From Polaribacter sp. Z022 (GTDB lineage: Bacteria > Bacteroidota > Bacteroidia > Flavobacteriales > Flavobacteriaceae): a stretch of 64,000 nt of DNA. The notes below the pieces were generated by a model that was not told the origin of the DNA, searched no databases, and saw only the letters and a list, made by a program, of their open reading frames with translations. Below are positions 43,310-63,308 of the stretch, piece after piece (the stretch's first letter is position 1; the number at the start of each line of letters is the position of its first letter). The position numbers and the translations under genes are program-made. Location: assembly GCF_023555495.1 (NCBI RefSeq), contig NZ_JALCZO010000002.1, positions 186,001-250,000 on the forward strand, given 5' to 3'.

Positions 43310-46300
43310 TTAATCTATAATTATTTTTTTTGTGAGTACACCTTTTTCTGTTGAAATTTTTATAACATAAATTGAAGAAGATAATTCTTGAACTTTAAAC
43401 TTATATTGACTTTCATTTTTTAAATCATTCCAAACATTAATTCTTTTACCTAAAATGTTAAATAGTTCTAATTTATTAATAATTAAATTATTTAAATTTT
43501 GAATAGTGATTTCATTGTCTTTATTATTCATAAAAACAGCAAGTTTTGTGTTTAAAATATTTTCTTCTGTATTTAAGGTTGAATTTCCTTTATTGTTAAA
43601 AGTTAAATAAAATCTATCTGAATAAGTTCCTTTTTCTAAATCTAAAATAATAGGTGTTTCTTTAGAAAGTGGATAGAACATATTTAATAGTTTGTCTTCA
43701 ATAAAAATATCTCTATCAATATTTTTTATTGCATCTATTTCAATAGAAATTGGTTTAGAACGTCCTATTTTAATTGTTAATGGTACTTCTAAACGATCAC
43801 TTATTTCTTTTACTCCAGCAATAATTAGTTTTTTATCTGAATATTTAGGGAAGTGCCAGTAAATATCTGTAGATCCAATATCATAAACTTCACTATCATA
43901 TCCATTGTCATATTTAAATGAGTTTGTGTTTCTAAATGAAATTCCAATTTGCCTATGTAAATCAATATTGTTAGATCCTAAGTGATTAAAACCTAATTTT
44001 AAAATTGGCAATAAATCATACTGATCTTTTTCATTAGTCTTTATATTATTTCCTTTATAAAAATACGTACCTGTTCCATCTCCATCATTACCATCGTATT
44101 CATCTGTTTCAAAATTTCTCATCGAATTTTCAAATCTAACAGTACCACCTGTTGCAGAAGAAGCAACAAAGAACCCTTGTCCTACAGCAATATATCTATT
44201 TGGAGCATGATAATCACCTTGCCCAACTGTAATATTTCCACCTTCTGTAAATATAATGTCATCTATAATTAAGTTAAGGGGCACGTCTCCTGTAATTGTA
44301 AAAGAAGCTATTTCAGACCAAAATAGATTTACTTTAACACCATCAGTATCAGTTAGTGTTTTTAATACATTATCATTACTAGCTCCATCTGGTGTACTAA
44401 AAGTTAAATTTAATGTACCTGCTCCTTTTTTTGCGATATAAATACTCTGTACATTTATATCTTTATCAAAGGTAAAAGTTGATGTAAAAGATGCATCAAT
44501 ATCATCATCTGAATCTAAATAATTACCAGTAGTATTAGCAGCTTCATCTTCAGAGGTATTTAGGTTTTGTTTTGAATTTGTAGTAGAATACGTAATAGTT
44601 GTACCTTCTACAGTTTGAGTAATATTCGATGCATTATCAGTAGCGTCTTCAAAATCAAAAGTATAAGAGTTTTCTGCAGGAATACTATTTGCTGCAATCC
44701 CCATAGAAATATTTCTTTGAGAATAGCCTCCTTGATAACCTCTTAAATTATGCCCTTCAGTTGCAGTTGCAATAGAATCATCTTCACCTGTGTGTTCCCA
44801 GAAATACAATGTACCATCAATGGCACTTAAATTAGTACCAATAAAATCTACAGCATCTAAAGCACTTGGATAAGGGTTACCTAATAAACTTTCAGCATTT
44901 TTATCTGCTATAAAATTAAAAGTTATAGAACCGTCATTAGGAGTACCTACAAAAGTAAAATTTTGAAGTGTTTTTCCAGTACTTTTCATAGTGTAACCTT
45001 GTCCTCTTTCTATGACACCTGTTTCAAATTTTTGTGCCCAATCTGATTGAGTGGTTCCATTTAAATATGAATAAATCCAATATGGAGCAATTTCTATAGG
45101 AGTTTCAATTGCACCATCATAACCAGCTACCCAATTTATTTCTGTTATTGTTGATGTTTCTGATGTTGCATTAGTTCCATCTTTCATTACTTCACCAACT
45201 CTAAATGAATCTAAATTTAATTCTCTAACAGGAGATGACCAATAGTGATATCTATAAATACTTGGTACTTTAGCAGCTTGATCTCTATACAATTTTCCAT
45301 TTCCTTGAACATTTGAAGCTCCTGAGTGAGTTTGAATTAATTGACCATTGTCAATTAATCTGATTTCTCCATCTAAAATAAAGTCTTCATCAAATTCTAA
45401 GTATTTATTATCAGCAACCATTAACTTAGAGCCAGATTTTATCCAAACACACTCTACAATAGCATCTTCTGTTAAAGTTGGATGATTATCAGTGCCTTGA
45501 GCATCTATAACCATAACTTTATCTAAGTCTGCTGGATTAGTTGTAGGTTTACCTGAGTTATATCCTCCTAACCATCTATCTGCTTCTAAAGTTGCACCAC
45601 CATTCCAAAAAATTCCATTTATTTCACTGAAAGTAAAATATTTAGTTCCATTAAAATCAAATTCTGTAGTGTATACAGTTCCATCTTCTTTTAATGGCGC
45701 ATATTTTACATTCGTAGTAAAAGCAGCATCATCTGCAACTTTTAAAACTTTTATAGTAAAATCTGTATTTAATGCAAGATCTAAATCAGATTTTGTAGCT
45801 GTTATTTCTACAGAACCTACACTACCATTTTCAACAATTTTCCACTTTCGTTCTAATGTTTTTTCTGGTGCACAAATTAATTCTGTTTCTGTAACATCAG
45901 CATTTAATAAACTTCCATCATCATTACCCCACATTAAGAAATCTTTATTAGAATCAAATCCTGTAGCAAAGTTTACATTGTTAACGTTTGAGTCTGCTAT
46001 TGCAGTTAAACCGATTGTAATAATTGCATCTGATGAAACACCTACAGATTTAGATTGATATTGAGCAAAATCCATAGCATCGTCTCTACCAATACCTGCA
46101 ACATCATTATGGTAAGCACTATTAGCAGTATAATCCCAAACTTTGGTGGTTTGATCAGCTAAAACATAATCTCCTTCTACGATATCTCCACTGTAGGAAA
46201 TAGCGCTTAATGTAAATCCATATTTTATTGCTAAATAGCTTTCTATTTGTTGTTGTTTTGCAGCAGTAGGTGTTTCATTAAAAACCATTATTTCTGCTAT

Positions 46301-49300
46301 TTGACCATCCCAGTATCTGTTAGAACCTCCAGCATTACTACCAATTCCCATATTATTACCATCACCAGTTATGGTTACTATAGTATTACCACTTGTAGTA
46401 TTTATAACACCTCCTAATTGATGATTAGCTTGTTCAAAACCTGTTGGAGTACTAGTAGAAGTTGAAGTTCCGAAAGTGTATAATGAATAATTATTTAAGA
46501 AGTTTGGTGGATTGTCTACTTGAAAAATTGTTCCAGATGCCCCAAAGCGTTGTCTCCAAACAAGTGGGTCATTGGGTGCATCATTACTTATTTTAACGTG
46601 AAAATTAAGACTTGAACCTGATACTGCTTCAACAAAAATAAAAGAGTTTTTATGAGTGTTAGGATTTGTAACTACATATGTCCATAAATTATCGTAAGTA
46701 GATCCACTACCTAGAATACCACCAATGATGTTTAAATCTTCACTATTAGCGTCATCAAAATCTAAAACAGGGTTAAAGTTTAGACCTACATCCATTTTAT
46801 CTGGAGCTGTACCTGAAGGTGAAGTAGCATTAAAAGCATTGGTTTGGTCTATCCAAGAAGTTACTTCTTGTCCATCACCAGCATTGTCAGTAACATCTCT
46901 GTCTGCTCTTAACCACAGAATATTACCTGCACTTCCAGGGGTAATAGTTCCAGTAGTGGTATCTCTATAATCTACATCTTGTGTTGCTACATCAGAATCT
47001 TCGTCTGGTAAATCTGCTTGTGGAATGTCAATTTCATCATTTACGTCATAACCATCGTTATTGTCTACACCTTCAAAGTTGTCATCTAAACCATCTCCAT
47101 CTGTATCTGTACCACTTATTGCGTTGTCTGAATCTCCATTTTCTTGAATGTCTGGTATTAAATCTCCATCAGAATCTGTATCTAAATAATCTGGAGTTAA
47201 ATCTGATTCTGTTGGGTGAGTAGCATCAGTATTTACAGGTGTAAATATTGAAACTCCATTGTCTAATGCAGTTTCATATGCGTTGTCAAAACCGTTTGTG
47301 CCAACAATTCCTGTAGGAGCAATGTATAACGTACCTGCACCTGTTGTTCTTGTATTTTGTGCTTCTACATTGTCTGGTATTCCATCATTATCTGCATCTA
47401 TATCTAAATGATTTGGTACGCCATCTGAATCTGCATGATACACATCTGGATAACCATCAGAATTATCATCTGTATAATCTGAACTACCACCAGGACCACC
47501 ACTACCATCATCTGAAATATCTAAATAGTTTAAAGTACCATCATTATCTTCATCACCTAAAGGATCAAAACCAGCACTTTCTACAGTGTCTAAAATACCA
47601 TCATTATCATCATCAATATCTGTTGCATTTACAATGCCATCATCATCTGTGTCAATACCAACTAAAGCATCTCTGTAGTCTAAATCTCCACCTATTAAAA
47701 CATCACTATCAGAAGCATCATTTAAAAAACCATCTGTTTTTGGTTCTACATGAATACCGTTAACATCTGTATAACCTTGGTCTGTATCTGCATCTTCTAA
47801 AGCATCTAATAAACCGTTTGTACCTACTTCTCCTGTAAACCTTCCTCCAGAATTTGCAGGAAGCGATTCATTAATAATTCCTTCATCAATATCATTAGTT
47901 AAATCTCCATCTGAATCTAAATCTAAATAGTCTGGGTTTGCATCACCATCTGTATTTACCACTGTTAAGCCAGTATCATATGCTAAGTCAATTCCAAAAA
48001 TATTGTAACTACCTGAAGGTTGAATATAATCTGCAGTTGTTTGTGCTTCTATGTTATCTGGAATTCCGTCATTGTCTGCATCTAAATCTTTAAAATCGAA
48101 AACACCATCACCATCCGAATCTAATGGAGTGCAGAAATTTAAATTTCCTATTGCTAAATTGTTAAAATCTCCATTTTGTCCTGAACCAGCATTATTGTAT
48201 ACAATTTGAAGCTTGATAACGTATTCTGGAATTAAATCTATTGTAACATTTCCATTACCTGTAGTTAAACCAGTAAAAGTATTTGAACCACTATATTCAT
48301 TTACGGTTCCATCTACTGTGTAATCTGCAGGTTGTAATAAATATGTAGAACCATCTTGTTTGGTTATTATTATTTGAACTTCATCTATAGCAGTTGTAGT
48401 TACGTCTATATTTAAATCGTAAAGGGTAAAGCCTAAACCATAAATTGGACTACTAAAGTTAAAAATATGTCTTGAAGATGCACCAAAAGATGCATTTTGT
48501 CTTAAGTTATAAGAACTAGTAGCTTCTGTAAAATCATTTACTAAAAAATCACTATCACTATTTACATTAGAAGTTCTTGAAAAAGTTACTTCTACTGCAT
48601 TTGTAGTAAAAACAGGACTATTATTTGGGTCATCACCATCATCTGAGTTTGCACCTCCAGTAGGATAAAGGGTATCCCAATCTATTTCTGCAGTAAAAGG
48701 ACCAGAAACACAGCTTCCCATTTCATCTGTGTCTAAAATTCCGTCATTATCATCATCTAAATCTACTTCATCTTTAATTCCATCTCCGTCATTATCTGTA
48801 GAAAAAGTACTATCTCTATAATCTACATCACCACCTCCAAAAACATCAGTATCATTATCTGGAAAATTATCGGTTTGAGAATTGTCAAAGCTTCCATTTA
48901 CATCAGTATAATTATCTCCATTATCATAATTGTTATCTAATCCATTTGTACCAAAATCTCCACTTAAAGATATTCCAGCTTCAGTATTATCTAAAATACC
49001 ATCGTTATCAGAATCTGTTTCTAAATAATCATTATCACCATCACTATCAGTGTCTTGTGGAGTTAATCCTCCTGAATAAGCAGTGTCTACACCAGTTCCA
49101 TCAAAAAGACCATTTGGTGGAATATAATCTATAGTTGTTTGTGCTTCTATATTATCTGGTATACCATCATTTTCTGAATCTAAATCGAAATGATTAGGAA
49201 CACCATCTGAATCTGCGTGATAAATATCTGGAAAACCATCTCCATTTGCATCTGTATAATCTGTTGTTAATATGCCTCCAACATCATCATCTGAAATATC

Positions 49301-49936
49301 TAAATAATTTAAAATTGAATCTCCATCATCATCACCTAAAGGATCAAAACCACCACTTTCTTCTGTATCTAAAATACCATCATTGTCATCATCTAAATCT
49401 GTAGAATCTGGCACACCATCATTGTCATTATCTGTAAAAACGGTTGTAGAATCTCTCCAATCTACATCATTTGGTACATCTAAAGCATTATTGTTTGGAA
49501 AATCTCCATAAGGAGAATCATCAAAATTACCATTAGCATCTGAGTAATTATCTGAATTTTCTGAGTTTGCGTCTAAACCATTATTACCATTATTACCAGT
49601 TAATGATAAATTTGCTTCAATTCTATCTAAAGTTCCATCATTATCAGAATCTGTGTCTAAATAATCTGGTGTATCTATAGTGTCATGGTTATTTGGTGAA
49701 ATTCCTAAAGAATCAGTACCATCTGCTAATCCATTTGGTGTGTCATCATATTCATTATCCAAACCATCTCCATCATTATCTAAACCAAAAGGTGGGGCAT
49801 AATCTGCAGTAGCTTGGGCTTCGATATTATCAGGAATTCCATCACCATCTGAATCTAAATCTAATTCATTTGAAATTCCATCACCATCTGGATCACAAAT
49901 AACTTTAAATCCATCTATACTAACATGGTCTATAGT
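43310..49936 (-). pseudogene. Giant type IX secreted protein, 5' end lost at a recombinase junction
   Basis: The open frame runs from 49936 to the stop at 43310, about 2208 codons, but has no signal peptide and no proper start. The most upstream candidate in the array is a TTG at 49762, yet the same frame continues 58 codons upstream with matching repeats (ICDPDGDGISNELDLDSDGD), so the real gene began further right. Many thrombospondin type 3 repeats come first, then a laminin-G-like domain (GNILWLRADRDVTDNAGDG), a region paralogous to the neighbouring giant protein, and a type IX sorting end (KGVLTKKIIID). The frame stops exactly where the recombinase gene ends, pointing to insertion. Confidence 0.8.
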
Positions 49937-49942
49937 TTATGT
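49921..49942. other. Probable integration junction (attachment site half)
   Basis: Here the frame of the giant secreted protein (to 49936) meets and overlaps the last codons of the serine recombinase (stop at 49930). Serine integrases commonly lie at the end of their element next to the crossover core. The exact core bases cannot be fixed without the other junction or an empty-site genome. Confidence 0.55.
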
Positions 49943-51405
49943 AACCCATTTGCAGTCGTTTTAAAAGAAGTGGTTTTGGGTAGAATATAGTTAAGGTTTA
50001 TAGCTATTTCTTGTTCTCCAACTATTATTTTTTCAGTAATAATTTCTATAATTTTTCGTTTTTGTATTTTGGTAAGTTTACTCCAGTTTTCATATAATGA
50101 TCTTGCTTCTTCTATAATATATCCACTAGATTTAAATTGATCGTTTAATGCAAATATCTCTCCTTCTAATTCTGGAATTTTCATTTTAAGTCGTTTTATT
50201 TCTCTATTTGGTTTGTCATAAAACTCATTAAAACGATCTGTTTCAATCTGTCCTTTTTCGTGTAGCTCAAATATTTTTTCAATTTTAACTTCTAGCTTTT
50301 CAATCTTTGATTCAATAATTTTTATTTCTTCTTTTTTCTCATTTATGACAGTATGGGTTCCATCAAAATATCTATTTACTTCTTCTTTAGATAAGATAAA
50401 TTCTGTGAGTTGTTCTTTAAAGATTTCTTCAATATCTTCGATTCCAATTTTACGTTTGCATTTTTTACAAGTGTATTTTGGATTCCCAGATGGGATATAC
50501 ATTTTACCACCACATTCACAAAACAAATAGCCTGTAAACAAATGTACCTTTCTATTAAGTGGTTGAGTTCTTCCTTTTTCTTGTTTGGTAATTAATAAAT
50601 TTACTTCATCCCATAATTCATCAGAAACAATTCTTGGTGCTTTATGTATATACCATTCTTTTTTATCTCGTATTTCAGTTTTTCCTTCTTTATTAATTTT
50701 AGTATGATGAGACCTCCTTATTCCTTTAGTTGTTGGATCTTTAAGTAAACGCTTAATTGTTATTCCTGAAAACAGGCTATTTCGTTTTGTTCTGTATCCT
50801 TTATCATTTAAAATTTTGGCAACCGTTCCAAAACGTTGATGTTCTAAATACAGCGTATACATCATCTTGCGGATTGGAGCTTCTTTTTCATCAAGTTCCA
50901 TTTCTTCTTTCCCTACTCGTTTATATCCAAAAGGAATAGCACCCATTACTTTTCCCATTTTGGCTCGTACTTCTACAGAAGAATTGATACGTTCAACAAT
51001 GTTTTCTCTTTCCCATTGGCTCATTGCTGAAATGATAGTATAGAAGAATCTTCCTGAAGGAGAACTTGTATCAATAGATTCATGTAAAGAAATCAAATCG
51101 GCATTGTATTCTTGAAAATGATCTGAAAATTCTAATAGTTCTTTTACGTTTCTTGCAAGTCGGGCAATTTTAGAGAAGATTAGGCCTTGTATATGTCCAC
51201 TTTGAATATCTCTTAACATTCGTTGAGCTTCATGATGTGCCATTACACTTTTTCCACTTACTGCTTCTAAATGATATTCTTCTGCAATTTCCCATTCTTT
51301 CAAATCTGCATACATTTTCGCTTTTTGTAAATGATGCTCAGGACTGTCTGAATTTTGCTGTAACTTGGTAGACACTCGAATCCACACTCCAACTCTTTTT
51401 TTCAT
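49930..51405 (-). CDS. Large serine recombinase (site-specific integrase)
   Basis: The 491-residue protein has the resolvase catalytic domain (residues about 3-150) with the nucleophilic serine in WIRVSTKLQQ and arginines in FSKIARLARN. A recombinase domain follows (IPFGYKRVG onward), then a zinc ribbon (CECGGKMYIPSGNPKYTCKKC) and a long coiled coil (about 345-420). It cuts and joins attachment sites to integrate or excise an element. It reads outward to the left and its stop coincides with the broken end of the giant secreted-protein gene. It is distinct in sequence from the second recombinase at 55204. Confidence 0.88.
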   Translation of the reverse strand: MKKRVGVWIRVSTKLQQNSDSPEHHLQKAKMYADLKEWEIAEEYHLEAVSGKSVMAHHEAQRMLRDIQSGHIQGLIFSKIARLARNVKELLEFSDHFQEYNADLISLHESIDTSSPSGRFFYTIISAMSQWERENIVERINSSVEVRAKMGKVMGAIPFGYKRVGKEEMELDEKEAPIRKMMYTLYLEHQRFGTVAKILNDKGYRTKRNSLFSGITIKRLLKDPTTKGIRRSHHTKINKEGKTEIRDKKEWYIHKAPRIVSDELWDEVNLLITKQEKGRTQPLNRKVHLFTGYLFCECGGKMYIPSGNPKYTCKKCKRKIGIEDIEEIFKEQLTEFILSKEEVNRYFDGTHTVINEKKEEIKIIESKIEKLEVKIEKIFELHEKGQIETDRFNEFYDKPNREIKRLKMKIPELEGEIFALNDQFKSSGYIIEEARSLYENWSKLTKIQKRKIIEIITEKIIVGEQEIAINLNYILPKTTSFKTTANGLHKL

Positions 51406-51417
51406 TGTTTACTTATT

Positions 51418-51430
51418 GACATTCAATGTC
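51418..51430. promoter_or_regulatory. Small inverted repeat before the recombinase gene
   Basis: GACATT-C-AATGTC is a perfect 6-bp dyad 12 bases upstream of the recombinase ATG, well placed for a repressor site. No matching regulator is proven; the XRE protein encoded just upstream is a candidate. Confidence 0.35.
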
Positions 51431-51524
51431 TAAAGTAACACAAATGTTTCAAACACTAAAAATATAAGTAATTGAAAAGTATGCTTTTTTAATATTAAAA
51501 TCAATGATAGACAATGTAATTTTA

Positions 51525-51773
51525 TTACTTTTCTGAATAAATACTTTTTTGAAAATCAAATAAATCTTTAAATTGAATTCCAAGTGCATTAACAATTTTA
51601 AGAAGAGTTTTCAAAGTAGCATTTGTACGACCCGTTTCTATACGTTGTAATGCATTTTCTTCCATATCAGATTTAACTGCTAAATCTAATTGAGTCATAT
51701 TCTGTTCTTTCCGAAATTTTTTGACTTGTTTTCCAGTAAGTCTTATAAACTCTTCTCCCTCAAATACTTTCAT
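51525..51773 (-). CDS. XRE family helix-turn-helix regulator
   Basis: With the start at Met 51773 the 82-residue protein is a single Cro/CI-type domain: LTGKQVKKFRKEQNMTQLDL, ALQRIETGRTNATLKTLLKI. A longer frame to 51818 adds a hydrophobic 15-residue stretch overlapping the palindrome and is less likely. It lies 119 bases upstream of the recombinase on the same strand and may repress it or the divergent lipoprotein operon through the palindrome at 51817-51838. Confidence 0.8.
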   Translation of the reverse strand: MKVFEGEEFIRLTGKQVKKFRKEQNMTQLDLAVKSDMEENALQRIETGRTNATLKTLLKIVNALGIQFKDLFDFQKSIYSEK

Positions 51774-51816
51774 TTCCTTAAAATTTATAGAAAAATAGAT
51801 GTATTTGAAAACAAAC

Positions 51817-51861
51817 AACCCAACATATATGTTGGGTTTTAAAATTTATTTGTTATGTTTG
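51817..51861 (+). promoter_or_regulatory. 22-bp palindrome over a consensus promoter
   Basis: AACCCAACATATATGTTGGGTT (cited as positions 51817-51838) is a perfect dyad with centre ATAT. TTG at 51832-51834 inside it is followed after 19 bases by TATGTTTG (51854-51861), a consensus Bacteroidota promoter for the lipoprotein at 51890. A repressor bound to the dyad would block the -33 element. The XRE gene diverges from here. It could alternatively be a transcription terminator, because T residues follow it. Confidence 0.55.
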
Positions 51862-51889
51862 CCTTTTAACACATAAAAAACAAAACATT

Positions 51890-52636
51890 ATGAAAAAAAT
51901 CTTATTTATTTTAAGTCTTGTAGTTCTTACAAGTTGTGGTTCAAGTTCTAAAGTAGTACAAAAAGAAGTACCTAGGTATAACCCGAATTTTGATTACACG
52001 CCACAAGACAGAGCCAACCCAAGAAGTGCTGATATTACCATTGCACTTTTAAATCCTGTTTTTGCTGACAAAAACCCAAATTTGAGAGTGCAACCTTACT
52101 CTACGTTTATAGAAAATATGGCAGATGACTTTGAAGAAATGCTGATTGCTAAAGGTTTTTCATTACGTGGACCTTTTAAAAATCGTGATGAAATGGTGTA
52201 TGGAGATAAAAAGAACTCTGATATAGCGCTAGAGATTAGAATTAGTTTAAAAGACGAGGGAAATTTAGCGTTAAAACAACAAACAAACTGGTCGCAAATG
52301 ATTAGTAAAAACGCCCCTAACCATTACAAGGTTTCAGGAACATTCTATCACTTTGGTAATATTATCATTGAAGCTACTGACCCTTTTACTGGAGAGAAAT
52401 TTTGGAAGAAAACCATAGCACTTCCACGTAAAGAAATTATGGCTCAAGGAAACAAGATATGGACAGGGAAACCAACACCAAGGCAATTAATGTCAGAAGA
52501 TACAGGAGTGTATAATCCAACAGCTAAAGCACTTGAGGAATACTACCAAGAAGCTATTAAAACTGCCTATAGACATATTGATGTGAATGAAATGAAAATG
52601 ATTAAAAAAGAAATCCAAAAATCTAAACAAAATTAA
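51890..52636 (+). CDS. HpaA-like lipoprotein
   Basis: The 248-residue protein has a lipoprotein signal (KKILFILSLVVLTSCGSSS, lipobox Cys16). The mature part (ITIALLNPVFADKNPN; FIENMADDFEEMLIAKGFSL) resembles the neuraminyllactose-binding haemagglutinin/HpaA family of Helicobacter by pattern. It would be an envelope-anchored protein carried by the element, perhaps affecting surface properties of the host cell. It is transcribed with the small membrane protein that starts 2 bases after it. The family call rests on memory of the pattern and is moderate. Confidence 0.55.
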   Translation: MKKILFILSLVVLTSCGSSSKVVQKEVPRYNPNFDYTPQDRANPRSADITIALLNPVFADKNPNLRVQPYSTFIENMADDFEEMLIAKGFSLRGPFKNRDEMVYGDKKNSDIALEIRISLKDEGNLALKQQTNWSQMISKNAPNHYKVSGTFYHFGNIIIEATDPFTGEKFWKKTIALPRKEIMAQGNKIWTGKPTPRQLMSEDTGVYNPTAKALEEYYQEAIKTAYRHIDVNEMKMIKKEIQKSKQN

Positions 52637-52637
52637 T

Positions 52638-52871
52638 ATGGAAAACCAAGAACAAACTCAGAAAAGAGAAGAAGCAATTAAAGATATGAAAATGTATCTA
52701 GCAAATGATTGGAATTTAAAGGAAGAAACACCAGAGTATTTTTTATTAACTCGAAATACGTCATCAACTACGGTGCATATTTTATTAGCCTTTTTCTTTT
52801 TTTGGATGGCATTTATACCAAATATTGTGTATCATTTTTCTAAAAAGGAAAAGAAAAAGATATTGAAATAA
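52638..52871 (+). CDS. Small membrane protein, unknown function
   Basis: The 77-residue protein has a charged N-terminal half (ENQEQTQKREEAIKDMKMYL), then one or two hydrophobic segments (TTVHILLAFFFFWMAFIPNI) and a basic lysine-rich end. It starts 2 bases after the HpaA-like gene stop and ends before a terminator, so the two form a two-gene operon. Nothing more can be said of its role. Confidence 0.65.
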   Translation: MENQEQTQKREEAIKDMKMYLANDWNLKEETPEYFLLTRNTSSTTVHILLAFFFFWMAFIPNIVYHFSKKEKKKILK

Positions 52872-52890
52872 GGGAAAATATTTTTAAATA

Positions 52891-52927
52891 AAAAACTGCC
52901 TAATAAATATTTTAGGCAGTTTTTTTA
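52891..52927. terminator. Terminator after the lipoprotein operon
   Basis: ACTGCCTAA (52895-52903) pairs with TTAGGCAGT (52912-52920), with A and T runs on the flanks, so it can work in both directions between convergent genes. Confidence 0.85.
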
Positions 52928-52949
52928 TGAGTAAGATTTCAGTATTGCT

Positions 52950-53444
52950 CTAATCCCTTAAGTAATAATGTGTCATTCCTAAACTAATTGCATCAAACAT
53001 TCCTTGGTGGTGCTGTTCACTATGTCCAAGTTTCCAAGGTCTAGGTAATTGTGATTTGAGTTTCGGAAACCATTCTGAAATACTAACTGCAATTCCATAT
53101 TTTGTGGTCTTTCCAAATTGCTCAAAAACATTTTGTATATGTTCTCTAGAATATTGATATACATTAATATCTTTATCATTACAAGTCAATACAACATCTT
53201 TGATGAGTTTTCTAACCCGTTCTCGTTTTCTAGAGTTCTTAGCACTTGGATCTTCTAAAATCACTACATCTGGCTGCAACTCGTCAATTATTTTTTCAAT
53301 AAATGCTTTGCTTTTTCTAGAACACATAGGACGTATGCGAACTAACTGTTGATACAAAAGCTTTTTAGGGTTCTCAAAAATCGCATAGCCAACACCTAGC
53401 GCATTTGGAAATAATGCGCACACTATTTTCTCGCCCTTTTTCAT
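52950..53444 (-). CDS. RuvC-like nuclease-fold protein with altered first catalytic position
   Basis: The 164-residue protein follows a RuvC/RNase H-like pattern: first strand CALFPNALGVGYAIFENP, second DVVILEDPSAKNSRKRERV with a Glu, and the final helix HHQGMFDAISLGMTHYYL with an Asp. In RuvC the first strand reads DPG with an essential Asp; here the aligned position is Phe (ALFPN), so catalysis may be lost or use another residue. Such proteins accompany mobile elements. Its start overlaps the stop of the upstream XRE-type gene by 4 bases, suggesting coupling. Confidence 0.65.
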   Translation of the reverse strand: MKKGEKIVCALFPNALGVGYAIFENPKKLLYQQLVRIRPMCSRKSKAFIEKIIDELQPDVVILEDPSAKNSRKRERVRKLIKDVVLTCNDKDINVYQYSREHIQNVFEQFGKTTKYGIAVSISEWFPKLKSQLPRPWKLGHSEQHHQGMFDAISLGMTHYYLRD

Positions 53445-53782
53445 CGTTCTTCTTTCAACAAGTTATCAAATAGGTTTTCAAAGAATTTTATTCTCGTTTT
53501 TACATCAGTAGTAGGCTCTAATTCATCTAATGAAATTAATAGCTCTGGTAATTTTTCCTTAAATTGATATTTCAACATATCCACAGTTTTAGGGAATAAG
53601 TCAACCATAGACTTGCCAAATAGGAAGATGTATGTTAAAATTATAGTAAGGTTGATGGAATGTTTACCTTCCTCTATCTGATGAATTAATGTACTATCAA
53701 CCCCACCGAGCAGATGTGAGATATCTGCTTGGGTGACGGTTGCTTGTTTACGAACTGTTCGTAAATTATTCAATTTGTTCAT
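53441..53782 (-). CDS. XRE-type helix-turn-helix protein
   Basis: The 113-residue protein has an N-terminal Cro/CI-type domain (ATVTQADISHLLGGVDSTLIHQIEEGKHSI) and a helical C-terminal half of unknown role. It overlaps the RuvC-like gene by 4 bases, so the pair is co-translated. It may control the element or target the RuvC-like protein to DNA; this is inference from coupling. Confidence 0.75.
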   Translation of the reverse strand: MNKLNNLRTVRKQATVTQADISHLLGGVDSTLIHQIEEGKHSINLTIILTYIFLFGKSMVDLFPKTVDMLKYQFKEKLPELLISLDELEPTTDVKTRIKFFENLFDNLLKEER

Positions 53783-54355
53783 ATATGATTAAGACACTAC
53801 AGGGTTAGGTATAATAATTTCTGTAGTGTCTTTTTCTATTTTATCAATAATACAAACCATTTATATACTGGAACTCCTTAAAAGTTCTATTTTTTAATTT
53901 ATGATGAATGCAACGATTGTATTTTGTGAAAGATGTTTACATCTTTCTTTTTCTATTCTCATAATTCCATTAGTTCTATTCTTTTTTATTGGAATTACAG
54001 AACTGATTTCTGTTTATTTTTTAACTTACCTCATTTGATTCTTATACCCTGTTTTTACTCAATTTTTTCTTGATTTTTTACATAAATACCTCATAAATAA
54101 TAGTTTTTCGTGTAATAAATTAACTTTTTTAGTTTTTTCTGATGGGTATATATCCCTAAATTTTATTTTTCATTGATAAAACCTTAATTTTATTTCTGTT
54201 TTCTTTCTGTCTTTTTCTTTTGTAGTGTTTATTTTGTTGTGTGTAGATTTTGCATTGATATCAGGATAAAGCTGCATAGCTTTTTTAAATATGGAGTGAA
54301 AAAGTAAATTTCTTATGCAACTTTTGCAATAAAAAAACACTTTTTAGGTGTTTTT
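53783..54355. other. 573-base gap, no supported gene
   Basis: The stretch is T-rich on the plus strand. It contains a hairpin GAAAGATG-TTTA-CATCTTTC near 53928-53947 and a weak AAAAAACAC...GTGTTTTTTT hairpin near 54334-54356 that can end the minus-strand gene beside it. Short frames exist, including a 44-codon hydrophobic one from 53902, but none is convincing. It could hold an origin or attachment sequence of the element; I see no clear iterons. Confidence 0.5.
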
Positions 54356-54805
54356 TTAATAGTTTTCATTGGGGTTATGCAAATTTCTCTGTCTCATAAT
54401 CTCTCGATGACGTTCACTATCTGTTAAAAAATGTGCTTTCTTCTTTGATTTATATAAAGGAAGCCTAGTTATTTTTGCTTCTTTCCGTTTTAATCCATAG
54501 AAAATTTTAGAAGACACTCTCCGTTGTTCAGCAGATACTAATAAATGACCTTGCTCATTGGTAACAGTGATGATTCCTTTTTCAAGCAATCCTTCAATAC
54601 CACTTGAAATGGTGCGTATAGATAAATTCGTTTTTTCTTCAAAAAATCGCTGTGCAATCCAATCTCGCTTTTTATAACTTTTGGTTCGCTTATCATACCA
54701 GCCATAGGTTTGTCGGATAATTACCAACAGAATACACATTTCTGAAGGTTTTAGAATTTTTAAATACTGATCGAATATATAATTCGGAACATTGGTATAT
54801 GACAT
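54356..54805 (-). CDS. Winged-helix replication-initiation-like protein (phage O type)
   Basis: With Met 54805 as start the protein has 149 residues and opens MSYTNVPNYIFDQYLKILKP, close to the N-terminal domain of phage replication protein O and similar plasmid initiators: a winged helix with QTYGWYDKRTKSYKKRDWIA and NLSIRTISSGIEGLLEKG. The C-terminal part is basic. A longer frame from 54850 would overlap the operator-like palindrome and is less likely. It probably binds the element's DNA as an initiator or regulator. Confidence 0.65.
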   Translation of the reverse strand: MSYTNVPNYIFDQYLKILKPSEMCILLVIIRQTYGWYDKRTKSYKKRDWIAQRFFEEKTNLSIRTISSGIEGLLEKGIITVTNEQGHLLVSAEQRRVSSKIFYGLKRKEAKITRLPLYKSKKKAHFLTDSERHREIMRQRNLHNPNENY

Positions 54806-54831
54806 TTTAGAACTATAACAAATCTCCTTAA

Positions 54832-54876
54832 CCCTATATATACAGGGCATTTAGCAATATCCTGTATTTATAGAGG
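54832..54876. promoter_or_regulatory. Two related near-palindromes in a divergent promoter
   Basis: CCCTATATATACAGGG (54832-54847; 7 of 8 base pairs) and CCTGTATTTATAGAGG (54861-54876; 6 of 8) share the CC-T-TAT...ATA-GG pattern and lie 29 bases apart. They sit between the minus-strand winged-helix gene and the plus-strand small protein/recombinase pair, as expected for operators of a lysis/lysogeny-like switch. The binding protein is not identified. Confidence 0.45.
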
Positions 54877-54903
54877 TGTAACATTCCGATAAGATGTTTA
54901 TCA

Positions 54904-55056
54904 ATGACTGCACTACTTCCCACAAAATTATCTGACGAACAAATCAAACAGTTTCAAGATTTGTATTTAAAAAAGTATGGAAAAACAATCAGTTTACAAC
55001 AAAGTGAAGAATTGGGCTTATATCTAATGCAATTAATTCATGTGGTTTATAGGTGA
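54904..55056 (+). CDS. 50-residue protein preceding the recombinase
   Basis: An ATG at 54904 opens a 50-codon frame with PTKLSDEQIKQFQDLYLKKY and GKTISLQQSEELGLYLMQLI, ending TGA 55056. From memory, short proteins with this L-S-x-E-x-I-x-x-F-x-x-x-Y-x-x-x-(F/Y)-G-x-x-(I/L)-S pattern recur directly upstream of large serine recombinases, including those of candidate-phyla genomes and prophages. It is helical and without enzyme motifs, and may be a regulator or directionality partner of the recombinase. Confidence 0.65.
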   Translation: MTALLPTKLSDEQIKQFQDLYLKKYGKTISLQQSEELGLYLMQLIHVVYR

Positions 55057-55091
55057 TTTTTCAATTTTCATTGCTATGATATACTTATAAA

Positions 55092-55185
55092 GCTACACCG
55101 TAAAAGGAAAACTATAAAATATTTAAACCCAACAAGGGGCAAAGGATGATTTACGGTGTAGCGCTTTAAATACTTCCTTTGTCCC
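55092..55185 (+). ncRNA. Candidate pseudoknot leader of the second recombinase
   Basis: GCTACACCGTAAA (55092-55104) is complementary to TTTACGGTGTAGC (55150-55162), a perfect 13-bp stem. GGGGCAAAGGA (55136-55146) is complementary to TCCTTTGTCCC (55175-55185) with one G-U pair, and two flanking A-T pairs extend it. The order arm1-arm2-arm1'-arm2' is that of an H-type pseudoknot, ending 18 bases before the recombinase ATG at 55204. A seven-codon frame (ATG 55146 to TAA 55169) with AAGG before it lies across the knot. Translation control is an inference; at DNA level the 13-bp repeats could be protein sites. Confidence 0.5.
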
Positions 55186-55203
55186 TTTTTGAGTCTCATA
55201 ATT

Positions 55204-56925
55204 ATGCATACTAAAAAAGACATAAAATATTTTATATACGCACGAAAGTCTACAGAATCTGATGACAAACAAATGGCCTCCATTGAAGACCAGATTGCAG
55301 AAGCTAGAAAACTAGCAACACAATTGAATCTTGAAATAGTGGACATTATTTCAGAATCAAAATCTGCCAAAGAACCAGGAAGAAATGGTTTTAATGAAAT
55401 GATTGCACGGATTCGAAACAACGAAGCTCAAGGAGTATTAACTTGGAAATTAAATCGTTTAGCACGGAATCCCATAGATGGAGGAATCGTGATTGATTTA
55501 TTACAAAAAAACACCATTAAACATATTCAGACGTATGGAAAAGAATATCTCCCTACTGACAATGTAATTATGATGTATATCGAGTTCGGAATGTCCAATC
55601 AATTCTCAAATGATTTGTCAGTAGATGTTAAACGAGGAATGCGACAAAAAGCAGAAAGAGGATGGTATCCTTGTGCAGTATTACCAATTGGTTACATTCA
55701 TAACGTAGGAAAACAATTTGAAGATGAAATTATTCCAGATCCAAAACGATTTTCGATCGTACAGCGATTGTGGAAGTTATTACTCAAAGGAAATTATTCT
55801 GTATCCGATTTAAAACGTGAAGCCAAAAAGATGGGACTTGTAAATCGAAAAGGAAAACCTTACGCACTAAACACCTTTGCGAAATTATTTGAAAATGAAT
55901 TTTACGCTGGTTATTTCAGTTGGAGGAATAATGAAGGGATTTTAACTCAATTAGAAGGGAAACACAAAAGAATGATAACCTATTCAGAATTTAAAAAAGG
56001 GCAGGAAATCCTAAAAAATAAAGGTAGGCCTACTCGAGTTAATTCTTATAATTTTCCGTATCGTGGTCCCCTTTCTTGTGGAGAATGTGATTCTCCAATT
56101 ACAGCGGAGCATAAACTACAAATTAGATGTACTCGTTGTAATACCAAGTTTTCTTTTAAAAACAGAACTTCTTGCAAATCCTGTGAGTTACCGATTCAAG
56201 AAATGAAAAAACCTACGATTACAGAAAAGGTGTATTATCGCTGTACCAAGCGAAAAAAGAAATGTAGTCAGCCTTATATAGAACAAGATAAGCTTACTGA
56301 AATTATTATGAAATATTTACAAGATATTTGTATTGATGAAGATTTTTTCAATCTTGCGATTGCTTGTTTAGACGCTACAGAAAAAGAAGATGTAGTAGAA
56401 ACTCAAAAACTAAAACAAAGTTTGTTAAAATGTAAAACAGAGCTTTCTACGAGGCTGGATGGTTTGATTACTCTTCGGTTAAATAATGAAATTAGTGCTG
56501 ATGAAATGAAGGCAACTAAATCTCAAATAAATGAGCAAATGGAAGAATTAGAAAGTAAACTAAAAGATATAGAAATCGCTACTTTTTCTTGGCGTGAGCA
56601 AGCCAAAGAAACATTGAAATTTAATTTTAAAGCGATTGAAATTTTTAAAAACGGAGACAATAACAAGAAAAAAGAAGTATTGTCTAAATTTGGTTCGAAC
56701 CTGAGATTAAAGGACAAATCGCTTTATTTTATAAGGGATTATCGATCTGAGATCATTCAAGAATGGCATCGTCTATATTGTTCTAAAATAGCAGGGTTCG
56801 AACCTGAAAAAAGCCTAATTTTAAAGGGCGAAAACCTCGATTTTAGTGATTTTGAAGCGGTGACTTCGAGAGTGCTCCCCCGTCTTAAGTTCGTTCGAAC
56901 CTCAGAACTACTTTTAGTAGCTTAA
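55204..56925 (+). CDS. Large serine recombinase, second type
   Basis: From ATG 55204 the protein has 573 residues; an in-frame TTG at 55189 is less likely. The catalytic domain holds the nucleophile in YARKSTESDD, with the arginines in WKLNRLARNP and a CPR/phage-like style of sequence (ASIEDQIAEARKLATQLNLE). The recombinase domain follows, then a cysteine-rich insert with eight or more Cys (CGECDSPI, CTRCNTKF, CKSCELPI, YRCTKRKKKC) and a coiled coil (about 395-465). It reads outward to the right. Its last 230 bases contain three copies of a GTTCGAACCT-like word. It differs from the first recombinase, so the module carries two integrases. Confidence 0.88.
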   Translation: MHTKKDIKYFIYARKSTESDDKQMASIEDQIAEARKLATQLNLEIVDIISESKSAKEPGRNGFNEMIARIRNNEAQGVLTWKLNRLARNPIDGGIVIDLLQKNTIKHIQTYGKEYLPTDNVIMMYIEFGMSNQFSNDLSVDVKRGMRQKAERGWYPCAVLPIGYIHNVGKQFEDEIIPDPKRFSIVQRLWKLLLKGNYSVSDLKREAKKMGLVNRKGKPYALNTFAKLFENEFYAGYFSWRNNEGILTQLEGKHKRMITYSEFKKGQEILKNKGRPTRVNSYNFPYRGPLSCGECDSPITAEHKLQIRCTRCNTKFSFKNRTSCKSCELPIQEMKKPTITEKVYYRCTKRKKKCSQPYIEQDKLTEIIMKYLQDICIDEDFFNLAIACLDATEKEDVVETQKLKQSLLKCKTELSTRLDGLITLRLNNEISADEMKATKSQINEQMEELESKLKDIEIATFSWREQAKETLKFNFKAIEIFKNGDNNKKKEVLSKFGSNLRLKDKSLYFIRDYRSEIIQEWHRLYCSKIAGFEPEKSLILKGENLDFSDFEAVTSRVLPRLKFVRTSELLLVA

Positions 56926-56956
56926 TATTATACTTCGTGCGTATATATTATATATA

Positions 56957-56980
56957 AAAACAATCTAATTAGGTTGTTTT
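56957..56980 (+). terminator. Terminator after the second recombinase
   Basis: AAAACAATCT (56957-56966), loop AATT, AGGTTGTTTT (56971-56980), one G-U pair, then T and A; 31 bases past the recombinase stop. Confidence 0.75.
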
Positions 56981-57056
56981 TAACTTGATAAACTGACAAT
57001 TTAAAAATCCCTTAAACTTTCATAGAGACTATAAAACTCAATTCGTAGTTCTATTT

Positions 57057-57203
57057 TTAACCTTTTTTTAAAGTCCTATTTTTATTAATATCCTTACTTA
57101 TTTCTAAGTATGTTCGTACTGGAGGTTTTGAGGGGATTTGTACTGGGATTTCATCTAAATTTACTTTTTTCTTAGGTTTTGTTTGCTTCTTGTTATTTTC
57201 CAT
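57057..57203 (-). CDS. 48-residue basic protein
   Basis: A 48-codon frame from ATG 57203 reads MENNKKQTKPKKKVNLDEIP and later PSKPPVRTYLEISKDINK, ending KKG before TAA at 57057. It is lysine-rich with a proline-containing centre and lies 3 bases after the stop of the four-helix membrane protein gene (57207), so it fits an operon. No family is recognised. Confidence 0.5.
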   Translation of the reverse strand: MENNKKQTKPKKKVNLDEIPVQIPSKPPVRTYLEISKDINKNRTLKKG

Positions 57204-57206
57204 TTT

Positions 57207-57785
57207 TTAAATATTTATTAACGTCGCCCATAAAATTATTAATATACCTAAACACACAAATATTAATCTCCGAGAGGCATAATAATATTTAAATCTTTTC
57301 TCATTTAACTTTTGATTATGAGAAGAACATTCAACATAATATTCAACTAATTCAGTTTGAAAATATTTTTTAGAATATTCTAATACTGCATTTTTATATT
57401 CATCATCATTTAAAGCATCAATATTTTTAAATTTACTAGAATATTCATCGAAAATTATTTTTTCTCTTTCATAAAATACATTTGATAATGGTAGATATTT
57501 ATATTTTTTAAATCCATTATCATACATTTTGATAAGATTAATAATAGCCATTAAGAAAAATCCAACAAGAATTAGAGATTGAAAAAGTATAAAAACACGC
57601 AAAGCCAATTTATTAGAGTTTAAAAGTATACTTGAATATTCTTTTATAAGATAAAATGCTCCTGCAAATAGCAAACTAAGAATTGTTATTGGCAATCTGA
57701 CTTGCGTACTAATATGTAACTTAATTTGTAATTCTTTATCATATCTATCTTTGTAGAAATCTATATTGGTTAACCCTTCAATCAT
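57207..57785 (-). CDS. Four-helix membrane protein, possible membrane effector
   Basis: The 192-residue protein has two hydrophobic helices near residues 31-48 and 62-86, a cytosolic-looking middle part rich in charged residues (about 90-168) and a C-terminal hydrophobic helix (LIFVCLGILIILWATLI). The arrangement, membrane helices around a soluble middle in a defence island, recalls SLATT/S-4TM-type membrane effectors, but I see no diagnostic motif. It is followed by the 48-residue gene and preceded by the lipoprotein gene, 6 bases away. Confidence 0.6.
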   Translation of the reverse strand: MIEGLTNIDFYKDRYDKELQIKLHISTQVRLPITILSLLFAGAFYLIKEYSSILLNSNKLALRVFILFQSLILVGFFLMAIINLIKMYDNGFKKYKYLPLSNVFYEREKIIFDEYSSKFKNIDALNDDEYKNAVLEYSKKYFQTELVEYYVECSSHNQKLNEKRFKYYYASRRLIFVCLGILIILWATLINI

Positions 57786-57791
57786 CTATAG

Positions 57792-58688
57792 TTATTTTAT
57801 CAAATCTAATCCCAGCACAATACCAGTCCAAAGTTCTCCTTGATAAACCCAATTTTTGGAATCATTTAAACCGTAATCAAACCCTAGGGCAAGTCCAATA
57901 TTTACTCTATTTATAGTAAAAACCCCTGCTCCTCCAAAACTTAATCCTAAAACAGATTTTTCTTCAGTAATTGTGTTATTGGTATTTGAAGCTTTTAGTG
58001 TAACTGGTGTTAGACCTAAAAAAGGTGAAAGAGAAAATGACAATGTTCTCTTATCATATCCAGCCATTTTTACTTGGCCTTTGTTATACGAGTTATAAAT
58101 AGGAGTTAAACTTGTTTTATTCCATTGATAACCATAAGCTATACCTGCGTTAAAATTAGTTGAAACAGTACTAGATAATCCCCCTTTTTCACTTCTAATT
58201 TTAAAAGGTATTGTTAATGTCTGAAAGACAGGTTTATTTGTAGTGTATTTAATTGCTTTTGTTTTTATAAACTTATTATTTGATTTTAATTCCTTTGCAT
58301 CAGTATAAAATTGACCTTTTCCAATTTTTATTAACTCTTCTGCTTTTAGACCATTTTTAGTAAAAGCATATCTATCAGCGAGTCTTAAGCCATCAGAATC
58401 AGTATCAAAATCTATATTTGTTTTGATTGAATCAAGAAGCTTAAAATCTTTTAAATTTAAGGGTTTGAATCTTATTTTATCATCTTCGATTTTAATTTTC
58501 ACATCAACATTTTTTTCTGCTTTATATATATAAATATCATGAAAACGTACCGTTTCAGTTGAAGCAATATTTTCTTTGTAAGTAGTTATTACGGTTCCTT
58601 TTGATAATTTTTGGACATCTAATGTTCTTGTTGAGCTACAAGAACAAAAGATAACAAATGTTACGAGTAATATTATTAGTTTTCTCAT
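57792..58688 (-). CDS. Lipoprotein with beta-barrel-like C-terminus, unknown function
   Basis: The 298-residue protein has a signal peptide with a lipobox-like FCSC (Cys17). A charged first half follows, and from about residue 165 there are alternating strands with glycine/aromatic pattern (FSLSPFLGLTPVTLKAS; VNIGLALGFDYGLNDS) and an end GIVLGLDLIK. This looks like an outer-membrane or periplasmic beta structure. Its start overlaps the stop of the 82-residue gene by 4 bases. No defence role is known; envelope function is as likely. Confidence 0.6.
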   Translation of the reverse strand: MRKLIILLVTFVIFCSCSSTRTLDVQKLSKGTVITTYKENIASTETVRFHDIYIYKAEKNVDVKIKIEDDKIRFKPLNLKDFKLLDSIKTNIDFDTDSDGLRLADRYAFTKNGLKAEELIKIGKGQFYTDAKELKSNNKFIKTKAIKYTTNKPVFQTLTIPFKIRSEKGGLSSTVSTNFNAGIAYGYQWNKTSLTPIYNSYNKGQVKMAGYDKRTLSFSLSPFLGLTPVTLKASNTNNTITEEKSVLGLSFGGAGVFTINRVNIGLALGFDYGLNDSKNWVYQGELWTGIVLGLDLIK

Positions 58689-58933
58689 ACAATTGGTCTT
58701 TTAGGTGCTACGACGAACTTACTTTTTTCAACAGGAGTTTCAAAAATTTTTGTTTGTGGATTATACCCAACATCATCATTTTCAAGAAGATGCGTTAATG
58801 CATTAAATTTAGTCAGAGAAAGTCGTTTTTTCCACATAGATTTTTTACTACCAAAAAAAACTGTAATTACTCCATAAGGCTTTGTAGCTTCTACCTTTAA
58901 AGCTTTTTTAAAATGAGTTACTTTATAATACAT
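58685..58933 (-). CDS. 82-residue basic protein, unknown function
   Basis: The protein is small and basic with strand-like segments (YYKVTHFKKALKVEATKPYG; SKFVVAPKRPIV) and no signal or membrane segment. It overlaps the lipoprotein start by 4 bases, showing coupling, and lies 72 bases downstream of the helicase gene, so it may be transcribed with the Hachiman pair. No family is recognised. Confidence 0.55.
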   Translation of the reverse strand: MYYKVTHFKKALKVEATKPYGVITVFFGSKKSMWKKRLSLTKFNALTHLLENDDVGYNPQTKIFETPVEKSKFVVAPKRPIV

Positions 58934-59005
58934 AATTCTAATTTTTAGTTTATAAAAATATTACACTTCACATTAAAATAAATACCTACAATTAGGTATT
59001 TATTT

Positions 59006-61186: not shown

Positions 61187-62127
61187 AAATCTAAAGATTG
61201 AATTTTACTTAAATTTTCATGAAGACCTTTAACTAGTTCTTTTTTATCTTTTACTGGAAATAGTATGAGAATAATATTTAATCTAGATTTTAATGGATGA
61301 TCATTTTTTTCATCAAAATAAGCTTTTAGTTCTCTCATCTCCTTTGTATAAATATCAATGAAATCTTGTGAAAATTCATCAACACTTGAATCACTTAATA
61401 ATTCAGAATTATAAGTACATAATAAAGGAATATTTATAGCACTTAGTTGGTTAATCAATTTATTTTCTTTCGAGAGTAAATCCAGCCATTCATCTTTTTG
61501 AGGAATATTGTCAAAGTATTTAATCTTTTTAGATATGAGTGTAAATTCAGAATTTAAGTAATCAGTATTAAAATGTTCTTTTATATCCTGAACTAATGCC
61601 TTTACTCCATTTTTACCTGACTTGTATAATTTTGATTCTCCTAACCACAAACTATTATTACTGGGTTGGATATGTACAGAATCAAAACCATGTACAGCAT
61701 GACCTCTTGTGTCTTTAAAATGTATTTTTGATAATAGCGGTATTGTATTATAGAAATCCCTTAATAATAAGTGCAATATTAATTCTCCAAATTCCCCTCG
61801 TCTTAAAAATTTATCTTCAATATCATCCTCAATTTCGTCTTGATTATTTAAATAAATATCTCTGGCATTCTTAAAAGAATCAATTTTATACAAAGATTTT
61901 GCAGCTTCAATTAAAACAGGAAGTGTTTCTGTATTACTTGTTTCCTCTCCATCATGGAAACCAAATGCAAATTCGTGGATTACTTGAGTAAGTTTATTTA
62001 TAAGAGGTTTGATTCTATAGACACTTTCATTATTGTCGTCTATATCAAACCCTACAAAAAAAGTACTTAGTTCATTTTCATCAATTTTATGAGAAATTAT
62101 CGATTGGGAATTAAAAGGAGTTGGCAT
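61183..62127 (-). CDS. hamA: HamA-like nuclease (DUF1837) of a Hachiman defence system
   Basis: The 314-residue protein has the DUF1837 core: RRGEFGELILHLLLRDF (about 109-125), HGFDSVHIQ (about 146-154) and LWLGESKLYKSGKNGV (about 160-175). GE, FD and ESK fit the acidic/lysine triad of a PD-(D/E)xK nuclease, as in HamA of Hachiman. HamA degrades DNA when released by HamB, causing abortive defence. The gene leads the pair with a 4-base overlap to hamB, as in known systems. The N-terminal about 100 residues are helical and variable. Confidence 0.82.
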   Translation of the reverse strand: MPTPFNSQSIISHKIDENELSTFFVGFDIDDNNESVYRIKPLINKLTQVIHEFAFGFHDGEETSNTETLPVLIEAAKSLYKIDSFKNARDIYLNNQDEIEDDIEDKFLRRGEFGELILHLLLRDFYNTIPLLSKIHFKDTRGHAVHGFDSVHIQPSNNSLWLGESKLYKSGKNGVKALVQDIKEHFNTDYLNSEFTLISKKIKYFDNIPQKDEWLDLLSKENKLINQLSAINIPLLCTYNSELLSDSSVDEFSQDFIDIYTKEMRELKAYFDEKNDHPLKSRLNIILILFPVKDKKELVKGLHENLSKIQSLDL

Positions 62128-62221
62128 AGCTTTATCATATAACAGTTTTTTTCATTGATAAAGATAGGTATATAAAGAATAACATCAAAACATTTTAAAT
62201 ATCAGACTATTATCTATTAAC

Positions 62222-62983
62222 TCAATACCTACTTTTCTTAATAGCATTTTTTATTTCTTCTTTACTTCTAAAATCTAAAGGTATTGGTATGTGAGTTGGA
62301 TACCTATAAAGTCCAATAGTAAACGAATGATTTCGAGAATCTTCATAGTTCCTCCAACCAGTAATTTCAGTTAGATGATTGAGTTCATTTTCATTATCAA
62401 TATTCAATACATAGCCAAATGGTGGAAATGTAAGTTCACAAACAGCGCCATACATATTGGTAAAAGTTAAGCCCAACGTCCTAATTTGTCCTTCGTTATT
62501 AAGATAATGATATATCTTGTATCTATCAGGTAATTCTGTTTTTTTTACATCTAAAGTAAAATCAAGTAATTCGGGGTAAAGTTCAGTAAAGTAAACATCA
62601 TTCATACAAATAAACATAGATACTATTTGCTTTAAAATTCTTAACGGATTTTGGTTGTTTGCTTCAAATTCAATATACTGAAAATCATATTTTAAATTAA
62701 TATCCATACCAACATTAGCCCACTTAGAAAAAGGGCGAACATAATTGTTGTTTAAAAAGCTATTACAATCTCGACATAAAGTATAGTAACCTAGTCCCCC
62801 TTGCTGAACCCTTCCTGTAGGTTTGTAATCAAGGAAACTTTGATTAGCAAAATCACTATGAGATATTGAATAATATCGAGTATTCTTATTGAAAGCTACT
62901 CTAGGAGGAATGTGTTCAAAACTTAATTTCTTTTCTTTTTTACACAATCGGCAAATACCAATTTGCATTTTTCTTTTAGTCAT
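62222..62983 (-). CDS. HNH-type nuclease-like protein
   Basis: The 253-residue protein opens with a cysteine pair (CRLCKK), the HNH-type SFEHIPPRVAFN (His at about 24) and a second pair in CRDCNSFLNNN (about 71-81), followed by a region of strands without recognised motifs. Two CxxC pairs with EHIPP suggest a treble-clef HNH domain. It overlaps the upstream 98-residue gene by 8 bases and lies 94 bases upstream of hamA. It is probably part of the defence island, as an independent nuclease or with the small helical protein. Confidence 0.65.
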   Translation of the reverse strand: MTKRKMQIGICRLCKKEKKLSFEHIPPRVAFNKNTRYYSISHSDFANQSFLDYKPTGRVQQGGLGYYTLCRDCNSFLNNNYVRPFSKWANVGMDINLKYDFQYIEFEANNQNPLRILKQIVSMFICMNDVYFTELYPELLDFTLDVKKTELPDRYKIYHYLNNEGQIRTLGLTFTNMYGAVCELTFPPFGYVLNIDNENELNHLTEITGWRNYEDSRNHSFTIGLYRYPTHIPIPLDFRSKEEIKNAIKKSRY

Positions 62984-63272: not shown

Positions 63273-63308
63273 TTTTTGTATTTTGTTTCATAAATATAAG
63301 TTTTATAA

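Follow-up and report, generated by a model that had tools for sequence, protein, structure and literature searches.

A serine-integrase element in a giant secreted-protein gene of Polaribacter that appears to split its own integrase gene on integration

Introduction

Why should the stop codon of a large serine recombinase fall exactly where a gene for a giant secreted protein breaks off? The question is raised by a 64,000-nucleotide stretch of Polaribacter sp. Z022 (contig NZ_JALCZO010000002.1, here C21, positions 186001-250000; hereafter the window), from a genome of 3.49 Mb assembled into 48 contigs (G000). A first-pass annotation of the window had proposed that an element interrupts a secreted adhesin-like gene at this point and could switch a surface protein on and off. 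Here we report that the break marks one end of a 47.7-kb element, and we consider it very likely that this element carries its attachment site, attP, inside its own gene for a recombinase with a helix-turn-helix (HTH) domain, such that integration would split the host gene and the element's own gene together. The features on which this reading depends are listed below, in window coordinates unless another stretch is named; G, C and L numbers are our handles for genomes, contigs and loci.

43310-49933, minus strand: 3' part of the giant gene, with aspartate-rich repeats (judged by eye) and a type A sorting domain of the type IX secretion system (T9SS)
49930-51405, minus strand: large serine recombinase of 491 amino acids (aa), with Resolvase and Recombinase domains
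49931-49933, read on the plus strand: crossover trinucleotide TAT, common to both junctions
49934-64000, no strand: left 14,067 bp of the element, the rest of which extends to C21:283594
49944-49955, no strand: P arm ACCCATTTGCAG, 12 bp, with an inverted copy at L046:11571-11582
L046:11126-11587, outside the window: XRE-type HTH open reading frame (ORF) with an HTH_3 domain, at the element's opposite end

Results

A giant gene in two halves

The 3' part of the giant gene is, in the search of its own genome, a frame of 2,208 aa; it stays open to 49936 and has no start codon there. This limit, the missing start and the recombinase stop at 49930 all agree with the first-pass annotation. Its sorting domain scores 30.8 bits against TIGR04183 (cut-off 23). 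The name thrombospondin repeat, which had been given to its repeats, was a by-eye label; a Pfam search at 1e-3 returned Por_Secre_tail only and no TSP_3.

The missing 5' half lies to the right, where it had been expected. A search of the genome with residues 1-309 of this frame gave two matches within one 659-aa frame on the same strand (C21:283967-284770), the others being the query locus and paralogous stretches. The 5' half is a 657-aa ORF at C21:283553-285526 (L046:11553-13526), 47.7 kb off and on the same strand, with an N-terminus that is hydrophobic as judged by eye. A mutS2-like gene (by eye) adjoins it, and the flanks fetched from relatives contained no match to this neighbor.

Joining the two flanks at the common TAT yields an open frame of 2,844 aa that reads ...EGSLRIDHVSIDGF... 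Uninterrupted homologues in G001 (L048/L027) and G005 (L033) cross the joint gap-free over 45 residues, the three and four gap positions in their alignments of about 200 residues lying away from it. Homologues in G013 (L029) and G021 (L050) also span the joint, with a single gap position that lies a few residues upstream, and several further matches to the joined frame are repeat or paralogous matches that align poorly there. On this evidence, the giant gene is split by the element, whose precise excision would restore the 2,844-aa frame, and the placement of the element inside a T9SS secreted-protein gene is borne out. Neither the same truncation without the element nor a pair of halves that were never linked was found in the genomes searched.

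Ends and crossover

The element runs rightward from 49934 to C21:283594, a length of 47,661 bp that takes it past the window and far beyond the interval (49921-51405) covered by the first-pass annotation. Its termini consist of inverted arms CTGCAAATGGGT, one copy per end, around the common core, and the arm ACCCATTTGCAG occurs in exactly two copies within the 47,661 bp. In sequence anatomy the two ends conform to attL and attR, the junction sites of an integrated element, with a short core and P arms in inverted orientation. We take as core the shared TAT, within which the sequence does not fix the exact 2 bp exchanged.

The C-terminus of the recombinase encodes the left arm, and its stop codon, TAG on 49932-49930, is made of core plus one base of host DNA (the G at 49930). 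This codon straddles the crossover, which is why the recombinase ends just where the giant gene breaks off, as had been annotated. The same codon is TAA, TAG or TAC in relatives, as set by the host base, and TTG in a decayed copy in Tenacibaculum ovolyticum.

The recombinase has the domain order of large serine recombinases, with Resolvase (PF00239, 103.4 bits) followed by Recombinase (PF07508, 63.1 bits). It stays below the cut-offs of the XisF model NF041201 (108.9 bits versus 375) and of the SCCmec Ccr models NF047343/44/47 (CcrB, 161.5 bits versus 900). As part of the whole reading, it is highly probable that the element integrated by one exchange between attP and attB, a core-like host site in the coding sequence of the giant gene. 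We infer that this exchange was performed by the element's own enzyme, that of the 491-aa recombinase, and that a free circle exists.

The recombinase frame continues across attP

In the reconstructed circle of G000, the recombinase frame crosses attP into the HTH ORF (HTH_3, 23.6 bits against a cut-off of 23), giving a predicted fusion of 646 aa. The same frame is open in all 19 reconstructed circles for which both ends could be paired; with random frames, each element would have a chance of about one-third of being in frame.

These 19 circles came in two sets. In the first, 14 of 14 paired elements were in frame, with no stop between recombinase and HTH: those of G000, G142, P. marinus, G455, G013, G453 (Cellulophaga), the C10 element of our own genome, G306, G338, G1162, G971, G930, G852 and P. 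porphyrae. Fused lengths were 588-649 aa except in G453 (526 aa, HTH shortened) and in P. porphyrae, whose recombinase is frameshifted upstream and which was counted by its 3' end only. G852, with two candidate right ends that are each in frame, was counted once. An in-frame joint was then recorded as a prediction for nine more elements before their sequences were fetched. All five that could be paired (G002, G1202, G1257, G025 and G011) were in frame, with fusions of 579-646 aa. The remaining four were G005, which is G455 again, and three elements without an HTH end: two in G056, of which one has a shortened recombinase and the other a recombinase interrupted by a stop, and one in G044, at a contig end. 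The pairs do not include G139, whose recombinase is broken and whose ends are on two contigs, or G179, whose HTH is decayed; G251, for which the HTH end only was considered, also stands outside the count, together with L086, L088, G924, G006, G1203, further G852 recombinases, G1190 (L084) and G1264 (L081).

The ratio of nonsynonymous to synonymous substitution rates (dN/dS) of the HTH halves is 0.13-0.25 in the four closest pairs and 0.20-0.45 in the other computable pairs, which indicates that they are under purifying selection. Because selection acts on it, the HTH is suggested to be used in some state. For the recombinase, the ratio is 0.03 and 0.05 in the two closest pairs and 0.04-0.18 in others.

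A natural uncut fusion

A single natural ORF corresponds to the reconstruction. In JALEGN010000004.1 (L079/L097), a linear contig of 19,373 bp from a metagenome-assembled genome (MAG), recombinase and HTH form one ORF of 646 aa, the size expected from the G000 circle, and its product combines Resolvase, Recombinase and HTH_3 domains. The fusion is flanked by apparent element genes, and a TraD-like gene (by eye) overlaps its 3' end by 29 nt; in G000, a TraD-like gene (by eye) overlaps the 3' end of the HTH ORF by 26 nt. The contig may be a partly assembled free circle, a tandem copy or an artefact.

Relatives and their target sites

Related recombinases are found in 16 of 166 genomes of the genus at 1e-100 and in 6 of 397 of the family at 1e-60 (own genome included in both), as well as in 2 of 395 of the order at 1e-90 and 8 of 395 of the phylum at 1e-60, the last two samples overlapping and each including our own genome. 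A further 14 loci lie in named GTDB contigs, mostly Bacteroidota records. Query coverage of at least 80% was reached in none of 3860 matching plasmid records and none of 616 matching phage records. A first scan of viral contigs gave no locus and two further scans gave 2 and 8, of which L181-L185 show 19-29% identity and L176, L177 and L179 are without a fused frame, with no HTH end found within their flanks.

Only the window element, 1 of the 19 that are paired, lies in the giant gene. The seven paired ATA-core elements, to which it belongs, occupy the giant gene, a TauE/SafE gene and five other sequences, some of which resemble a repeat. Across the relatives there are at least seven combinations of core and target: ATA in various sites; a TGGC-type core in ssb; CAACCAAT in dprA; and CA, TG, AT and CT in Mg-chelatase. 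The TC core of G852 is additional to these. Pfam matches identify fragments of Mg-chelatase next to the elements of G1162, G971, G930, G011 and G002, TauE beside that of G453 and DprA beside that of G338, and SSB sequence (by eye) stands at the junctions of G306, G1202, G1257 and G025.

The second element of our own genome (C10:365260-417586, 52 kb) has the same design and splits an ssb gene, with SSB halves at 365087-365260 and 417567-417740. It carries an SSB at 416992, just inside one end, and a 150-aa SSB frame lies at 832238.

The attB of P. marinus, with an ATA core, contains GTGTATAATTAATGGC, and that of P. porphyrae is near-identical in the opposite orientation (by eye), which fits a palindromic AT core. 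With at most one mismatch, GTGTATAANTAATNGC occurs 5, 30, 36, 8 and 11 times in G000, G013, G454, G456 and G455, and its reversed control 1, 2, 2, 2 and 0 times. The giant-gene site resembles the ATA-core attB sequence only in part, from which we take it to be a secondary target; with relatives in other genes or elsewhere, the giant gene seems to have been hit opportunistically.

Three side observations concern these genomes. Copies of GTGTATAATTAATNGC stand in rows in one orientation (G013:C1:1835681-1848700 and 2955044-3048841; small contigs of G454), often about 1-4 kb apart, like cassette arrays, and some ATA-core elements use such an attB. In G852:C3 (L139-L140, about 110-126 kb), HTH ORFs of this type recur within 16 kb: plus-strand copies lie at offsets 9375, 12937, 19920 and 25183 of the stretch that was fetched, and one copy is on the minus strand; each plus-strand ORF begins at an arm-like GTTGCC or GGTGCC, and they are possibly attR remnants of several elements. 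The 33,059-bp contig G142:C4 (L065/L066, JAOEIQ010000014.1) has ends that overlap by 91 bp, and its attL and attR are separated by about 1 kb that does not belong to the element, as would suit either a circular molecule or a repeat-bounded contig.

Other genes of the element

Within the window, the element has the following further features.

51525-51818, minus strand: small XRE-like ORF (by eye), 97 aa when read from its first TTG; it lies upstream of the recombinase and is a possible regulator
52950-53444, minus strand: 164-aa protein with no Pfam match at 1e-3
55189-56925, plus strand: second serine recombinase inside the element (domain search)
59006-61186, minus strand: HamB, the helicase of a Hachiman-type defence system carried as cargo (PDLC00180, E 2.3e-237)
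61183-62127, minus strand: HamA (DUF1837) of the same Hachiman system, cargo (PDLC00150, E 3e-128)

The adjacent HamA and HamB genes at 59006-62127 form the pair that defines a Hachiman system. The relative in G142 has an ORF similar (by eye) to the 164-aa protein next to its recombinase, and also a 600-aa ORF (L066:9823-11625) resembling the second serine recombinase (by eye). A cluster at L045:499-9389 combines an ABC transporter (domain match) with ORFs labeled by eye as S26-like peptidase, nucleotidyltransferase-like and HPr-kinase-like, an arrangement like a peptide natural-product locus.

Discussion

We propose that in the free circle the recombinase and the XRE-type HTH domain would be a single ORF with attP at the joint. 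Integration would then break two genes in one event. Of the host gene, a truncated N-terminal piece and a C-terminal part that lacks a start would remain. Of the integrase gene, a tail-less recombinase would be left at one end, with host DNA supplying the stop or a few residues, and the HTH ORF would be orphaned at the opposite end. Excision would repair both genes. Because the tail is proposed to be present only in the free state, the integrating enzyme would differ from the chromosomal one: the tailed enzyme would establish integration, whereas the tail-less enzyme would be unable alone to excise the element, and excision would require an accessory factor or tailed enzyme from another copy. 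The idea that the HTH tail marks the free state, or the step from the free to the integrated state, is one that we hold tentatively. Just as provisional is the combined proposal that the integrase-HTH protein exists only in the free circle and the tail-less integrase only in the integrated state, that the tail is a switch of direction or commitment, and that XRE proteins with a PICxxTLKAxKP-like start in these genomes are orphaned integrase tails at attR. The tail could be needed for integration, act as a fused directionality factor on attL and attR of another copy or control expression; we consider such roles because serine integrases need a directionality factor to run the reaction in reverse, according to an extract of PMC5737554.

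Several observations weigh against a split integrase. The 19 pairs share common ancestry and are not independent, and the cores of G852, G002 and G011 were set partly by eye from arm symmetry and host continuity. The core-spanning codon of the decayed G179 HTH is TAA, and G139 has two ends that lie on separate contigs and do not match as a pair. An HTH end was sought in vain for G304 in 120 kb, for G860 and G1042 in 10 and 18 kb, for the two elements of G056 and that of G044 and, with the G000 HTH as query, in the genomes of L081, L084 and L087 (a partial match of 41 residues in L087); weak HTH matches in the genomes of L082 and L083 were left unpaired. HTH ORFs often have ATG or TTG directly past the core (ATG in six of seven ATA-type elements, AAG in G142), and in the integrated state they may simply be separate genes. 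Circle and fused frame are known here as reconstructions from sequence, and an AlphaFold2 model of the natural fusion, made without an alignment, was uninformative (pLDDT, a per-residue confidence score, of 41). These start codons, the decayed G179 copy and the faster evolution of the HTH relative to the recombinase would also suit two ordinary neighbors, whose open frame would be a by-product of P arms that encode a C-terminus and whose fusion would be irrelevant. We think this unlikely, as all 19 pairs are in frame across at least seven combinations of core and target and a natural 646-aa fusion exists. That this fusion contig, one window junction or both are assembly artefacts is highly improbable. 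The contig is linear, only 19 kb long, without terminal overlap and from a MAG binned to the unrelated Ca. Paceibacterota, and it may represent a tandem copy or an assembly error instead of a free circle; however, the overlap with the TraD-like gene is nearly the same there as in G000, the fusion has the predicted length, and the window junctions agree with homologues.

Regulated gene-interrupting elements are known from skin/sigK, fdxN and comK, and on their model the window element could be kept in the giant gene and excise in certain conditions, thereby activating the surface protein. The insertion is precise and the recombinase ORF is open; excision would restore the 2,844-aa frame, so an on/off effect is possible. 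A dedicated switch we set aside, because the target gene is not conserved: the paired relatives sit at other sites. The element also bears defence cargo (Hachiman), and its excision is a prediction from the DNA. We therefore regard a regulated switch as very unlikely.

A split integrase would explain why the recombinase stop codon and the break in the giant gene coincide in the window, and it may explain why such HTH ORFs also occur alone. The split would go unnoticed in annotations of integrated copies, which present an ordinary recombinase of about 490-515 aa and an HTH ORF tens of kilobases away; inverted arms together with an in-frame joint provide a rule for finding both ends of such elements. 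With the catalytic part surviving and the DNA-binding tail severed, control of direction could be tested by simple plasmid assays.

In its domains (Resolvase plus Recombinase), short core and insertion into genes, the element resembles large serine integrase systems such as A118/comK, fdxN XisF, SCCmec Ccr and phage WO sr1. A118 and fdxN are large serine integrase elements that insert into genes. Prophage WORiC sits in a magnesium chelatase gene, and the extract of PMC9203015 on which this statement rests does not mention a self-splitting integrase. A possible parallel in PMC6764341 was set aside, as the extract describes a tyrosine integrase. In mycobacteriophage BPs, as far as the extract of PMC4557955 goes, attP likewise lies in the gene of a DNA-binding protein whose C-terminus is changed by integration, but there a repressor loses a degradation tag, whereas here an integrase would lose a DNA-binding domain that becomes a separate ORF. 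Engineered fusions of serine integrases with directionality factors also join an extra partner to the integrase and alter direction (PMC5737554, in extract); those are man-made with a known factor as partner, whereas a role of the HTH in direction is putative.

Among the titles and abstracts listed by searches of the open-licence PMC literature, we found no description of a bacterial serine self-splitting integrase, and one may possibly exist elsewhere. The closest comparison is with the SSV-type 'suicidal' integrases, which, as described in extract, also have attP within the integrase gene, are split on integration and are intact only in the free state; their excision would need a complete integrase gene from outside (PMC8371274, in extract). 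In the SSV type, the split parts the catalytic domain from the remainder and makes the enzyme inactive. The window integrase shares the placement of attP within the integrase ORF, as seen in the reconstructed circles and the one uncut ORF. It differs in being a serine recombinase of Bacteroidota, with serine recombinase domains, rather than a tyrosine recombinase of archaeal elements, and in that its catalytic part would stay whole on the 491-aa protein, with only the HTH tail lost. Judged from its reconstructed ends, it follows SSV-type logic without being a member of that family: a self-splitting integrase, otherwise described for archaeal elements with a different enzyme, has here a bacterial serine counterpart.
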